From contig JAHBVY010000013.1 in assembly GCA_019637265.1 (NCBI GenBank), positions 1 through 64,000 on the forward strand: 64,000 bases of DNA, read 5' to 3'. A program made the translations under genes and the position numbers. Source of the stretch: Polyangiaceae bacterium (GTDB lineage: Bacteria; Myxococcota_A; Polyangia; Polyangiales; Polyangiaceae). Under the pieces are notes generated by a model. That model saw nothing but the letters and a program-made list of their open reading frames with translations, made no database searches and had not been told where the DNA came from. Positions 3,453-33,281 of the stretch are shown in pieces. The first letter of the stretch is position 1, and each line of letters opens with the position of its first letter.

Positions 3453-5831
3453 ATGAATGCCGTGCGGAAAAACGCCGCACGTCCACCACGCCCCATCCCC
3501 GCGGGCCTGCTGGCCAGCACCACCCTGCTCGCCCTCTCACAGCGCGCCACGCCCACTCCCCCCACACGCCCGAGCACCCTCGACCCGCGTCAAGCCCGGC
3601 GGGCTCCGCACACCAAACAAGAGCGTAACCCTCACCAATCACGCCCACCCCGCCATCGCCTGCAAGAGCTCTGGCGCTCCCTCCAAGCGCTCGTCCTCAC
3701 ATTAGTCATTCTGACGTCCCATGTTCACCCGGCAGCCATCGGCTTACTCTCGGCAGACCCCTCCCATGGCCGCCCGCAGGGGGCCTTGGCCCCCGAGGAC
3801 GGACATCGGGGAGGGGTAGGACGCGCGCAGGCCCATGGGGCCGAGCACGGAACGGGGTGGGCAACCCAAGACCCACACGAGGGCCTGCCTGACCCGCGGC
3901 GAGCAGAAGCTGCCCCGAGGCAGTCCTTCCCGGAGAGGGCTCGCTACCAGACCTGGGCCTACGACTGGCTCGGTAATCTGACTGACAGTGGGGACGACGC
4001 CGATGGCTTCTACGACCGCAGCCTGGGCGTCGCCGAGCACGGCCCGGTCAGTGGCCGAGCCTACCAGCTCCAGCGCGCCGACAACCGCGCGACGGGGAGC
4101 CCTAGGCAAGGCGCGCTGCGAACGAGCTACGACCTGACAGGCAACCTGACCGAGCTGCGCGTCGACCGCGACGGCCCCTGCATCCCCGCGGGGTACTGCG
4201 CCCAGGTCTACCGCTACGCCTGGGACGAGGTGGGTCGCCTCGTCACCGCCCGCCGCTGGGACGCGGCGAGCCTCGACGTCGAGGACACTGCCGCCCCTGC
4301 CGGGCCAGCTGCGGTGGAGCTGCACTACGGCTATGACGCCAATGACCAGCGGGTCAGCAAGCGCGCCGTCGACCCAGCAGGAGAGCAGAGCTTTACGCTC
4401 TACGTTTTCGACAGCTTGGAGCTGCGCCGCACCGCGTACCTGCCGCTGGAGGAGGACTACGCCCTCAACCCGAGCACCGAGGTCATCTACCTCCTAGCCG
4501 GCTCCGCCAGGCTGGCGAGGCTCGCCTACGAGGCTCCCGGCAGCGTGCCCTCGTCAGGCGGCGAGACGGTGCACGTGTTTCTGGAGCTGGGAGACCACCT
4601 GGGCAGCACCAACACGGTGCTGGACTTGGCCACCAGTGAATTGGTGGAGAAGAGCACCCACTACGCCTACGGAGGCATCGAGAGCGACTACCGGCCGACG
4701 AGGTGGAACAGCTTTAGAGAAGACTACAAGTTTACTGGGAAGGAAGAGGACATCGAGGTCGGCCTTGTCTACTTTGGGAAGCGCTTCTATGCGCCGGCGC
4801 TGCAGCGCTGGGCGAGCCCCGACCCGCTGACCGTGCATGGCTTGGGGGCAGACCCGAATCTGTACGCTTACGTCAGCGGACAGGTGCTGAAGAGCGTCGA
4901 CCCGTTGGGGCTTGACCTGTGGGATGCTTTGGGTGGGTTTATTGATAAACTCATTATCAGCCCACTTGTAGATACCGCAAAGAGCATCAAGGAAAATCTG
5001 ATTGCGAACGGTCAGCGACGAGCTGAGATGTCCCCCGGGGCAGCAGGCACGGAGATCTTGTATGACGCGACTTTAGGGCGTGCTACCGACGAGATAATAG
5101 GATTTGGTGAGTTTGTAGCCGAGTTAGCGTCTGGCCTTTGGAGCCTTCCTGAAGATCTTATCAAGGTCGCCACAGGTGACTTCTCAAGTGACCGGGCTCG
5201 CGGCGAAGCTGCAGCTAAGCCTGCTGCGACCTTGATAGATGCCGCAGCTGTTGGTACCGGATTACCCGGCTTGGTGAGGGGCATCTTCAGGGGGGTGCTG
5301 AGGGGAGCAGCAAGAGCCGCAACCAAGGGCGCAACCAAGGGCGCAACCAAGGGCGCAACCAAGGGCGCAACCAAGGGCGCAACCAAGGGCGCAACCAAGG
5401 GCGCAACCAAGGGTGCTACGAATGAACCCCCAACAAAGGTATCCACAGGGGTAACATCACCGAAGCCCAAGGGGCCAGCGCAAGAGGCAACAGGGGCGGG
5501 TGAAGGAGGTCTAGCAGGTTTGGTCGGGAAGGGGGGGGAGTCCGCGAAGGCCCCGCAGAACCTTTTCTATATAGAAAACGGTGTGCGACGTTCGCTTGTT
5601 CTGCGAAATGCTGGGATATCCGAGATCCCTGCAACTGTTTTCCGGCCCGGGTTTCGCCCAATTAATATTACATTACGACTCGACCAGCTAATGTCACCCA
5701 AGCTGTCCATTCCCATGGACTCTCGCTACCTGATGATTCAGCCTCCAATTCACACACCCATTCAGGTGCAACCCCTGGGGTTGCCAGGTCAGATGCCGTC
5801 CATTCCGCTCATGAATGTCACATTTGATTAA
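3453..5831 (+). CDS. Short Rhs toxin with leader, second cassette
   Basis: 792 residues. Residues 1-138 form a leader (MNAVRKN start, basic Pro/Arg-rich stretch, one membrane segment near 76-99). It joins directly to the last YD repeats at DPHEGLPDPRR, so the central Rhs shell seen in full-length proteins is absent. The core from about 140 to 487 is nearly identical to the first and third Rhs copies and ends in DPLGL (483-487). The 305-residue tip has a helical pretoxin part, eight ATKG repeats, a Lys/Pro/Gly linker and an unusual C-terminus rich in Pro, Met and Ile (FRPGFRPINITLRLDQL, ending MNVTFD). The toxic activity is not recognisable. The start was chosen because the MNAVRKN start is shared by all three leader copies; the ribosome binding site is weak. 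The immunity gene follows 2 bp after the stop. Confidence 0.88.
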   Translation: MNAVRKNAARPPRPIPAGLLASTTLLALSQRATPTPPTRPSTLDPRQARRAPHTKQERNPHQSRPPRHRLQELWRSLQALVLTLVILTSHVHPAAIGLLSADPSHGRPQGALAPEDGHRGGVGRAQAHGAEHGTGWATQDPHEGLPDPRRAEAAPRQSFPERARYQTWAYDWLGNLTDSGDDADGFYDRSLGVAEHGPVSGRAYQLQRADNRATGSPRQGALRTSYDLTGNLTELRVDRDGPCIPAGYCAQVYRYAWDEVGRLVTARRWDAASLDVEDTAAPAGPAAVELHYGYDANDQRVSKRAVDPAGEQSFTLYVFDSLELRRTAYLPLEEDYALNPSTEVIYLLAGSARLARLAYEAPGSVPSSGGETVHVFLELGDHLGSTNTVLDLATSELVEKSTHYAYGGIESDYRPTRWNSFREDYKFTGKEEDIEVGLVYFGKRFYAPALQRWASPDPLTVHGLGADPNLYAYVSGQVLKSVDPLGLDLWDALGGFIDKLIISPLVDTAKSIKENLIANGQRRAEMSPGAAGTEILYDATLGRATDEIIGFGEFVAELASGLWSLPEDLIKVATGDFSSDRARGEAAAKPAATLIDAAAVGTGLPGLVRGIFRGVLRGAARAATKGATKGATKGATKGATKGATKGATKGATKGATNEPPTKVSTGVTSPKPKGPAQEATGAGEGGLAGLVGKGGESAKAPQNLFYIENGVRRSLVLRNAGISEIPATVFRPGFRPINITLRLDQLMSPKLSIPMDSRYLMIQPPIHTPIQVQPLGLPGQMPSIPLMNVTFD
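5319..5414 (+). repeat. 12-bp tandem repeat x8 in the second Rhs tip
   Basis: Eight head-to-tail copies of GCAACCAAGGGC, the last ending in T. They encode (ATKG)8 in the linker before the toxin domain. The unit is a multiple of three, so slippage would change linker length without breaking the frame. Confidence 0.97.
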
Positions 5832-29149: not shown

Positions 29150-29800
29150 CCAAGCATAGGCTCCAAAGACGATGCGCCGCGGAGCGGCGCGGCGCTTCCG
29201 TGTGTTTCGCCCGTGGTGCTGGCCGGCGCACGAGCCCTTTCGGCGCTTTCAGCGCCTTGCCAAACCCCCAACCCCTGAGCCCCTCGACCCGAGCCCAAAC
29301 CCCCCAGCTCCCGCCCAAACCGTCCCCAGAAAATCGGCCACATGGCCGATTCGCCGGATGACCCCCCAGTGGGAGGTGGAGAACCTGTGACCTGCTTGTT
29401 GAGGTTCTCTTCGTAACCTGTGTTCAGGCCTCAGAAGTTCAGCATTTCCGGACCCCCGCGAACCCACAGGAGCTCGGCCGGAGGTGCCGTGTCGCTTCGC
29501 GCCACGAGGCCCGTCCCACTAGATGCTGGGTTTTTGTGCTTCCCCACCCCAACAGGTTGGGGTATGGATCCCTCCTCGCTCGGATCCTGAGCGGGCGTCC
29601 CAGATACCTCCGGCGCTGCGCTGCTGCACACCTGTTGCGGGCGCTCCTGCACGGCGGTCCAGTGACGGCCGAGCAGCTTCGAGGGGGGAGGGCTGAGCAC
29701 CTGTGTAGATCGATCGAGGGCTGGTGTGGCGAGCGGGGGGCGAGTATACAGTGACAAGTGTTCAGTGCATGAGGCGGCGCGGGCTCACGTGTCGCTTGGT
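29150..29800. other. Gene-poor intergenic region upstream of the nrdJ hairpin array
   Basis: About 650 bases between the membrane protein gene and the hairpin array. It holds one copy of the dispersed GGGGGTTTGGCA motif (29252-29269, reverse orientation). Open frames on both strands are GC-driven and overlap each other. I looked for a cobalamin riboswitch and a clear NrdR box upstream of the B12-dependent reductase and found neither. The nrdJ promoter should lie here. Confidence 0.4.
29252..29269 (-). repeat. Dispersed intergenic motif GGGGGTTTGGCA, copy
   Basis: The reverse copy GCGCCTTGCCAAACCCCC lies upstream of the membrane protein gene that ends at 28562. Confidence 0.7.
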
Positions 29801-30011
29801 GGCTGCCTCGGGCAGCAGGCTTGATGGGCTGCCTTCGGGCAGCAGGCTTGATGGGCTGCCTTCGGGCAGCTGGGTTTGAAGGGCTGCCTTTAGGCAGCAG
29901 GCTTGATGGGCTGCCTGGGCGGCCGGGTTCGATTGGTTTGAAGGGCTGCCTTTCGGCGGCGTGGTTGGTGGGTCACCGCGTGGGCGGGACTGGTTCGCCG
30001 CCCTGGGCGGC
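29801..30011 (+). repeat. Tandem hairpin array before nrdJ (seven GCTGCC/GGCAGC stems)
   Basis: Seven successive small stem-loops, GCTGCC-loop-GGCAGC or close variants, begin at 29802, 29828, 29855, 29883, 29910, 29945 and 29997. Two have perfect TTCG loops and others have TCG, TTTA or TTTC. The spacer AGGCTTGATGG or GGGTTTGAAGG repeats between them. The last stem ends 21 bases before the nrdJ start codon, so the array probably lies in the nrdJ mRNA leader. Confidence 0.85.
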
Positions 30012-30032
30012 TAGGATGGGAAGGAATCGAAG

Positions 30033-33000
30033 ATGGCGCAGTCGATGGTGGGGCAGGAGACGGTGACGAACAAGACGAGCTCCGAGGCGGGGCGTGAAAA
30101 GGGGGCTCCGTCGGGGCTCGCCTTCACGCGCCGGTACACGGAGGCGGGGCAGGGTCCGTTCGATCAGGTGGAGTGGCAGCGCCGCACCAGCGTGATCACG
30201 AACCCGGACGGCTCGGTCGTGTTCAAGATGGAGGGCGCGGAGATCCCGCGTGAGTGGTCTCAGCTCGCGACCGACATCGTCGTCAGCAAGTACTTCCGTA
30301 AGAGCGGCGTGGGTGGGGAGGCCTCGGGGCAGGAGACGAGCGTGCGCCAGGTGGTTCACCGCGTCGCGCACACCATCCGCGCCGCGGGCGAGCGCTTCGG
30401 CGGTTACTTCGCGACCCCAGAGGACGCCGAGGTGTTCGAGGCGGAGCTCACCTACCTGCTGGTGAACCAGTACGGCGCCTTCAACTCCCCCGTGTGGTTC
30501 AACTGCGGCCTCTACCACGAGTACGGCATCACCGGCTCCGGCGGCAACTGGGCCTGGAGCGAAGGCACCGTGAGCGACGTGGAGGAGACGCCCAACGCGT
30601 ACATCCGCCCGCAGTGCTCCGCGTGCTTCATCCAGTCGGTGGATGACGACTTGATGAGCATCTATGAGCTGGTGCGCCACGAGGCGCGGCTCTTCAAGTA
30701 TGGCTCCGGCACCGGCACCAACTTCAGCGCGTTGCGCGGCCGCCAGGAGAAGCTCTCCGGCGGCGGCACCTCGAGCGGGCTCATGAGCTTCTTGGAGGTG
30801 CTCGATCGCGCGGCCGGCGCGACCAAGAGCGGCGGCACCACCCGGCGCGCCGCGAAGATGGTGTGCCTCGACATGGACCACCCGGAGATCGTGGACTTCG
30901 TCCAGTGGAAGGTCCGTGAGGAGACGAAGGCGCGCGCGCTGATCGCCGCGGGTTACGAGTCGGACTTCAACGGGGAGGCCTACAAGACCGTCAGCGGTCA
31001 GAACTCCAACAACTCCATCCGCGTCAGCGATGAGTTCATGCAGGCCGCCACCACGGGCGGCAAGTGGCAGACCCGCGCTCGCACCACGGGCGAGGTGGTG
31101 GACACCTACGACGCGAGCGAGCTGTGGGGCATGGTGGCGGAGGCCGCGTGGAGCTGCGCGGATCCGGGCGTCCAGTACGACACCACCATCAACCGCTGGC
31201 ACACCTGCCCCAACACGGCGCGCATCAACGCGTCGAACCCCTGCTCCGAGTACATGTTCCTCGACAACTCGGCGTGCAACTTGTCGTCACTGAACCTGAC
31301 GAAGTTCCTCGACGCTTCGGGTCGCTTCGACGTGGAGGGCTACCGCCACGCCGTGCGGCTGTTCTTCCTGGCCCAGGAGATCTTGGTGGATCTCTCGAGC
31401 TACCCCACCGCGAGCATCGCCAAGAACTCCCACGACTTCCGGCCGCTCGGGCTCGGTTACGCGAACCTCGGCACCTTGCTGATGGTGCTCGGCATCCCCT
31501 ACGATTCGCAGCAGGGGCGCGCGATGGCCGCGGCGCTGACCGCCATTTTGTGTGGCCACGCCTACCGCGTGAGCGCGGAGGTGGCCAAGGCCAAGGGCGC
31601 GTTCAATGGCTTCGCCGAGAACCGCGACCCCATGCTCCGCGTGATGCGCATGCATCAGGAGGCGGCCTACGGCATCGACCGCGACCGCTGCCCGGAGGAG
31701 CTGTGGCGCGCCGCGCGCGAAGATTGGGACGAGGTGGTGCGGCTCGGTGAGCTCCACGGCTACCGCAATGCTCAGGCCACCGTCCTAGCGCCCACCGGCA
31801 CCATCGGCCTCTTGATGGACTGCGACACCACCGGCATCGAGCCCGATTTCGCGCTGGTGAAGTTCAAGAAGCTCGCCGGCGGCGGCTACTTCAAGATCGT
31901 CAACCAGGCTGTCCCCTTCGCCTTGGCGCGGCTCGGCTACAGCCCCGCGGAGGCGCAGGAGATCGTCGCGTTCGTCTCCGGGACGAACACGCTGCTCGGC
32001 GCGCCCCACATCAACCGCCAGAGCCTGAAGGAGCGCGGCCTCACCGATGAGGATCTGCGGAAGGTGGAGGACGCGCTCCCCGGCGTCTTCGATCTGAACC
32101 TCGCCTTCTCGCCCTGGGTGCTCGGTAAGGACACTTACCAGCGGCTCGGCATCACCGCGGAGCGGATGAGCCAGCCCGGCTTCAACCTGCTGCGCGCGCT
32201 GAAGTTCACCTCGCAGGAGATCGAGGAGGCGGGTGACGTCATCGTCGGGCGCATGACGATCGAAGGCGCGCCCTACCTGCGTGAGGAGCACCTGCCGGTG
32301 TTCGACTGCGCGAACCGCTGCGGCCGCACCGGACAGCGCTACTTGGCGCCGATGGCCCACGTCCAGATGATGGCGGCGACGCAGCCCTTCCTGTCGGGCG
32401 CCATCAGCAAGACAGTGAACCTGCCGAACGAGGCCACCGTGGACGAGGTGCGTCGCATCTATGAGGAGGGCTGGAAGCTCGGCCTCAAGGCGGTGGCGCT
32501 CTACCGTGATGGTTGCAAGGCCTCGCAGCCGCTATCGACCAGCAGCGGGAGCAGCGATCAGGAGGAGGAGTCCCAGGCGGACGCGCAGGCCGCGAAGCAA
32601 GTCGCTCAGCTGGTGCGGCCCACGGGCACCCGCGTGCGGCTCCCGAAGAAGCGCGCGGGCTTCACCCAAGAGGCGACGGTCGGCGGCCACAAGGTGTTCG
32701 TCCGCACCGGCGAGTACGAGGACGGCTCGCTCGGCGAGATCTTCATCGACATGCACAAGGAGGGCGCGGCGTTCCGCTCCCTGATGAACTGCTTCGCGAT
32801 GGCGGTCAGCGTGGGGCTCCAGTACGGCGTGCCCCTGTCCACCTACGTGGAGCAGTTCACCTTCACCCGCTTCGAGCCGCACGGCGTGGTGGTGGGGCAC
32901 CCGAACATCAAGTTCTCCACCTCGATCGTGGACTACATCTTCCGCGTGCTGGGGGTGGAGTACCTGAAGCGCTACGATTTTGCGCAGGTGCCGCCGGAGG

Positions 33001-33281
33001 AGCAGCCGGTGATCGCGGATCCGGTGGAGACGCGCCGTCAGCAGGAGCTCTTGGTTTCGTCGGCGGGGGCTTCGTCGGCGGGGGCTTCGTCAGCGGAGGC
33101 GACTGGCGGGTCGGCTACGCTGGCGGCGCCGGTCACGGAGGCGCGCGGCAGCGGGCTCGACGCGCAGCTGGAGGAGATGATGGGGGACGCGCCGGTCTGC
33201 GACGGCTGCGGCCACATCACGGTCCGTAACGGCGCCTGCTACAAGTGCCTGAACTGCGGCAACTCCATGGGGTGCTCCTGA
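30033..33281 (+). CDS. nrdJ: Adenosylcobalamin-dependent ribonucleotide reductase (class II)
   Basis: 1082 residues. It reduces ribonucleotides to deoxyribonucleotides using coenzyme B12, independent of oxygen. The blocks [64 protein letters not shown] and [20 protein letters not shown] are those of NrdJ. The C-terminus ends in a four-Cys zinc-ribbon (CDGCGHI, then CYKCLNCG), typical of this class. An Ala/Ser/Gly repeat (ASSAGASSA) precedes it. The start is supported by GGAAGGA about 8 bases upstream. No class I reductase is in the window. Confidence 0.97.

Follow-up and report, generated by a model that had tools for sequence, protein, structure and literature searches.

The seven stem-loops that precede the vitamin-B12-dependent ribonucleotide reductase gene nrdJ in the window (the whole 64-kb stretch of DNA analysed) probably arose when a small palindrome was tandemly duplicated within one lineage, in an mRNA leader free of constraint. 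This reading is preferred because the array occupies a single locus, is absent from relatives, grades from its 5′ to its 3′ end and has many comparable arrays around it. The original prediction had offered a local repeat expansion, which these four observations support, or an RNA stability or translation-control element, for which the lack of conservation in relatives leaves no support. Relatives named in the comparisons, including Byssovorax and Minicystis, point to the Polyangiaceae, order Polyangiales.

Composition and age gradient of the array

The array spans 29802–30011, as had been predicted (29801–30011), and consists of seven stem-loops of the form GCYGCC-loop-GGCRGC whose starts are spaced 26, 27, 28, 27, 35 and 52 bp apart. 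The stems are 6 bp in six of the seven, whereas that of stem-loop 5 is 5 bp because its arms lie just 2 nt apart. The features are as follows:

29794–29916, + strand, tandem array holding units 1–5, period 27, 4.6 copies, 86% matches (TRF and repeat search)
29802–29816, + strand, stem-loop 1, loop TCG
29828–29843, + strand, stem-loop 2, loop TTCG
29855–29870, + strand, stem-loop 3, loop TTCG
29883–29898, + strand, stem-loop 4, loop TTTA
29910–29923, + strand, stem-loop 5, loop (TG), 5 bp, with a T-G pair
29945–29960, + strand, stem-loop 6, loop TTTC, diverged, T-G pair
29961–29996, + strand, gap with a possible decayed unit (spacing of units 6 and 7, 52 bp, is about 2 × 26; weak fold)
29997–30011, + strand, stem-loop 7, loop CTG, diverged, C-G pair

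The loop is thus exactly TTCG in two units, as anticipated. The description of the whole as a tandem array holds for units 1–5, which share the 27-bp period, but not for the diverged units 6 and 7, which at spacings of 35 and 52 bp are out of register with it. The gaps between stem-loops are 11, 11, 12 and 11 nt across units 1–5, then 21 and 36 nt, and the last and longest may contain a decayed unit. A further 21 nt separate the last stem-loop from the nrdJ start codon. A search of the window for GCYGCC-N2-4-GGCRGC returns seven matches, all of them the array units, whereas mononucleotide-shuffled whole windows contain 1.0 on average and never more than 5, counted anywhere; as all seven window matches sit here against about one in shuffles, the array is real and above chance.

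The copies are graded by age, with a near-identical 5′ end and a decayed 3′ end. The stem-loops of units 2 and 3 are identical, units 2–4 are nearly so, and of the four spacers that separate units 1–5, three are identical; in units 5–7 the spacing, loops and spacers have diverged. The stem arms are less variable than the spacers, and all changes in units 5–7 keep the pairing, in agreement with the earlier description of later units as drifting yet still paired: one paired position varies, being T-A in units 1–4, T-G in units 5 and 6 and C-G in unit 7. Such pairing-preserving changes could reflect selection on pairing, for which they are mild evidence at the level of sequence. They involve that one paired position, comprise few events recognized post hoc and all run toward G or C, in line with GC drift, and are not proof of function. 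An internal palindrome arises in only ∼2.4% of shuffled units.

The nrdJ promoter and leader

The downstream gene is nrdJ, as predicted, with a TIGR02504 score above the cut-off; it encodes an adenosylcobalamin (vitamin-B12)-dependent ribonucleotide reductase (RNR), and its upstream neighbour is a divergent gene. The region contains:

29516–29531, + strand, NrdR-box-like palindrome 1, CCACTAGATGCTGGGT (31-bp pair found in most Polyangiales nrdJ leaders; score above shuffles)
29547–29562, + strand, NrdR-box-like palindrome 2, CCCCAACAGGTTGGGG (15-bp spacer from box 1)
29540–29568, + strand, putative promoter TTCCCC, 17 nt, TATGGA (read from the sequence; in relatives at the same position relative to box 2)
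29575–30032, + strand, putative nrdJ 5′ untranslated leader, ∼460 nt (from promoter position and start codon)
30033–33281, + strand, nrdJ, 1082 aa (TIGR02504 573 bits, cut-off 400)

NrdR sites are paired 16-bp boxes with a 14–17 bp spacer that overlap RNR promoters (PMC12051234). The arrangement upstream of nrdJ has the same geometry, namely two 16-bp boxes, a 15-bp spacer and overlap with the putative promoter, and the boxes themselves deviate from the AT-rich consensus. Box pairs with a centre distance of 31/32 bp stand clear of shuffles upstream of most nrdJ genes of the family and order, and the genome carries an nrdR gene. A strict sigma-70 consensus scan did not find a promoter at this site, which is why TTCCCC-17-TATGGA is called putative here. 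The overlap of the box pair with this promoter, its conservation and the presence of nrdR together point to a transcript start near 29575, which would place the array, from ∼225 nt onward, inside a long leader. Leaders of relatives with a recognizable box pair range from ∼190 to 870 nt. The earlier assignment of the array to the nrdJ mRNA leader is therefore supported, by the putative promoter and the NrdR-box-like pair ∼460 nt upstream of the gene.

A direct repeat GTTCAG-N9-GTTCAG lies at 29422–29442, upstream of the NrdR-like boxes. Across nrdJ loci, the 200 bp preceding the boxes contain 43 occurrences of GTTCAG/CTGAAC, spread over 23 of 23 loci, against 1.5 expected; the motifs are often paired ∼16 bp apart, and most nrdJ leaders hold a further copy. 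In the M. xanthus LexA box, the conserved half reads GTTCAG (PMC9705874). The full box, however, matches at only 8–15 of 17 positions; lexA is present in the genome. Judged by sequence, the promoter with its NrdR-like boxes and GTTCAG repeats appears to be a better regulatory lead than the array.

Comparison with relatives

In a relative of the same genus, NrdJ is 87% identical and gene order, box pair and promoter are kept; its leader of ∼870 nt is without the array and unalignable except around the start codon. Against 108 genomes of the family the array gives short, chance-level matches only, outside the window. These comparisons reject a leader element common to the family. The two-unit pattern GGGCTGCCTTYRGGCAGC-N6-16-GGGCTGCC has zero matches in ∼85,000 species genomes (a set from which the window's own genome may be excluded), so that a widespread unit is rejected also. 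With neither the array nor its pairing found in related nrdJ leaders, a conserved cis-regulatory RNA of nrdJ finds no counterpart there, and the result that had been named as refuting the prediction, no conservation of pairing in relatives, is what the relatives compared here show. As relatives are without it, the array has the appearance of a commonplace local repeat expansion, not of a conserved control element.

Tandem arrays in the genome and in other nrdJ leaders

Within its own genome the unit is found in one place, plus chance-level short matches, which rejects a dispersed repeat family. In a background sample of 844 kb, ∼105 kb of which is approximately non-coding by approximate masking, the non-coding DNA holds ∼34 tandem arrays of at least three copies with unrelated units. 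The nrdJ array is among the five highest-scoring arrays of the sample, and a few others also have hairpin units. One independent array (L158:12176-12263; G000:C12:512176-512263) consists of four copies of GGCGCC-GAA-GGCGCC with period 25 in a convergent-gene gap, and one of its units carries a change on both sides (GGCGCT/AGCGCC). Elsewhere in the window, 5318–5413 is occupied by a 12-bp unit, CGCAACCAAGGG, repeated eight times without a mismatch (TRF score 192).

The nrdJ leaders of some relatives carry arrays of their own, unrelated to this one, with periods of 16 (L018), 15 (L019) and 26 (L022). That of L018, from another genus, has 6.1 copies of GCTGCTCCGCTGTGCA and lies ∼290–390 bases before the assumed start. 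Altogether 3 of 33 nrdJ leaders (∼12 kb in total) hold an array of at least three copies, period at least 15 and score at least 60, against ∼0.3 arrays per kb of approximately non-coding DNA in the own genome, a rough guide only given approximate masking and different genomes. By this rough count the idea that nrdJ leaders are specially repeat-rich is rejected. The many spacer arrays in genome and leaders indicate that tandem expansion is common in such spacers and that the nrdJ array, ordinary in kind, is one large example.

Among known systems, minisatellites (VNTRs) are closest. The array repeats a single unit in tandem, head to tail, at one locus, and has in common with them a unit of tens of bases, absence from relatives and an age gradient; it differs in that its unit contains a palindrome and in that it is known here from one genome of the species. 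REP/BIME elements are also short GC-rich palindromes that sometimes form tandem clusters in extragenic DNA. They are defined by GTAG- and CGTC-tagged palindromic repeats (PMC3733652), whereas the array unit is without either tag and is confined to one locus instead of many dispersed copies.

RNA folding of the leader

As RNA, the array region folds with z = −2.7 relative to dinucleotide shuffles. The predicted minimum-energy structure is nested and long-range (−123.6 kcal/mol, versus −72.7 kcal/mol for seven local hairpins) because every left arm is complementary to every right arm, and in the full-length equilibrium ensemble hairpin 3 alone forms with high probability (0.88). Local hairpins are predicted to be preferred only under kinetic folding, where co-transcriptional folding was modelled by prefixes only. 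‘Seven tandem hairpins’ is accordingly a reading of the sequence from which the predicted equilibrium fold differs. In nrdJ leaders of relatives, z ranges from −4.3 to +1.7 without a common trend, and stronger folding as a leader-specific signal is rejected; the array value is somewhat stronger than most, though not unique, and is exceeded in L030 (−4.3), L175 (−3.0) and L172 (−2.8). Rfam models, including the B12 riboswitch, give no match at gathering score in the 64-kb window, so no known riboswitch or structured RNA family is recognized there.

Alternative explanations

The strongest alternative, itself unlikely, is a species-specific RNA element in which the stems, two with cUUCGg, shield the long leader against ribonuclease attack or determine the rate of translation through access to the ribosome binding site. 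Its putative transcribed position, ending 21 nt before the start codon, the very stable folding and the preserved pairing in the stems are all compatible with such a role, and the pairing predicted for the GGAAGGAA segment and the bases immediately 3′ of it changes when the array is left out. This accessibility change, however, is a single in silico comparison, the predicted equilibrium fold is not one of local hairpins, and the element would have no counterpart in any relative, the same genus included, nor in Rfam. Some mRNAs, such as that of ompA, are stabilized by stable stem-loops at the 5′ end of the leader. The array likewise presents stable stem-loops in an mRNA leader, but would lie ∼225 nt inside it and is unconserved. 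Distinctly less probable is a recently evolved, species-specific multi-hairpin device that would tune RNR output by copy number, its palindromes switching between local hairpins and the nested fold.

Transcription attenuation, by which a short-hairpin cluster would make some of the RNA polymerases terminate ahead of nrdJ, is very improbable. Hairpin clusters without a U tract, less than 15 nt apart and downstream of stop codons, have been proposed as terminators (PMC8355165), and units 1–5, contiguous, short and 11–12 nt apart, fall within that definition of a cluster. The array, in contrast, lies in a 5′ leader before an essential-type gene, is not conserved and gives no sign of termination. 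No T tract follows any of its stems and the putative leader holds no terminator-like site, which rejects an intrinsic terminator or attenuator with a T tract.

It is more doubtful still that seven copies of a 16-bp palindrome form a DNA-level operator array bound by a regulator. The repeated unit does form a perfect interrupted palindrome, but the irregular spacing (26 to 52 bp) is not helically phased, the genome has no second place where the palindrome is repeated, and the array lies far downstream of the putative promoter. Least credible is an upstream reading frame at 29769–29879 in which 27 bp, as nine codons, would encode an in-frame repeat peptide affecting nrdJ: an ATG frame does run through units 1–3, but it ends just after unit 3, at the 28-bp spacing, has no Shine-Dalgarno-like sequence and is absent from relatives.

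Origin and significance of the array

Under the preferred reading of lineage-specific duplication, a 27-bp unit carrying a 6-bp palindrome by chance would have been tandemly duplicated as a small minisatellite. Repeated slippage or unequal recombination would then have generated the recent, near-identical 5′ copies, and the 3′ copies would be older and drifted. The array is presumably transcribed with nrdJ and structured as RNA, and would be tolerated rather than kept for function; it may have some mild effect on the nrdJ mRNA, though this is unsupported.

Striking as these hairpins are in the leader of such an essential-type gene, the array serves mainly as a calibration case, being lineage-specific and fitting the intergenic-repeat habit of its genome. 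The same comparison reveals a conserved, order-wide nrdJ promoter architecture that combines paired NrdR-like boxes with upstream GTTCAG repeats.
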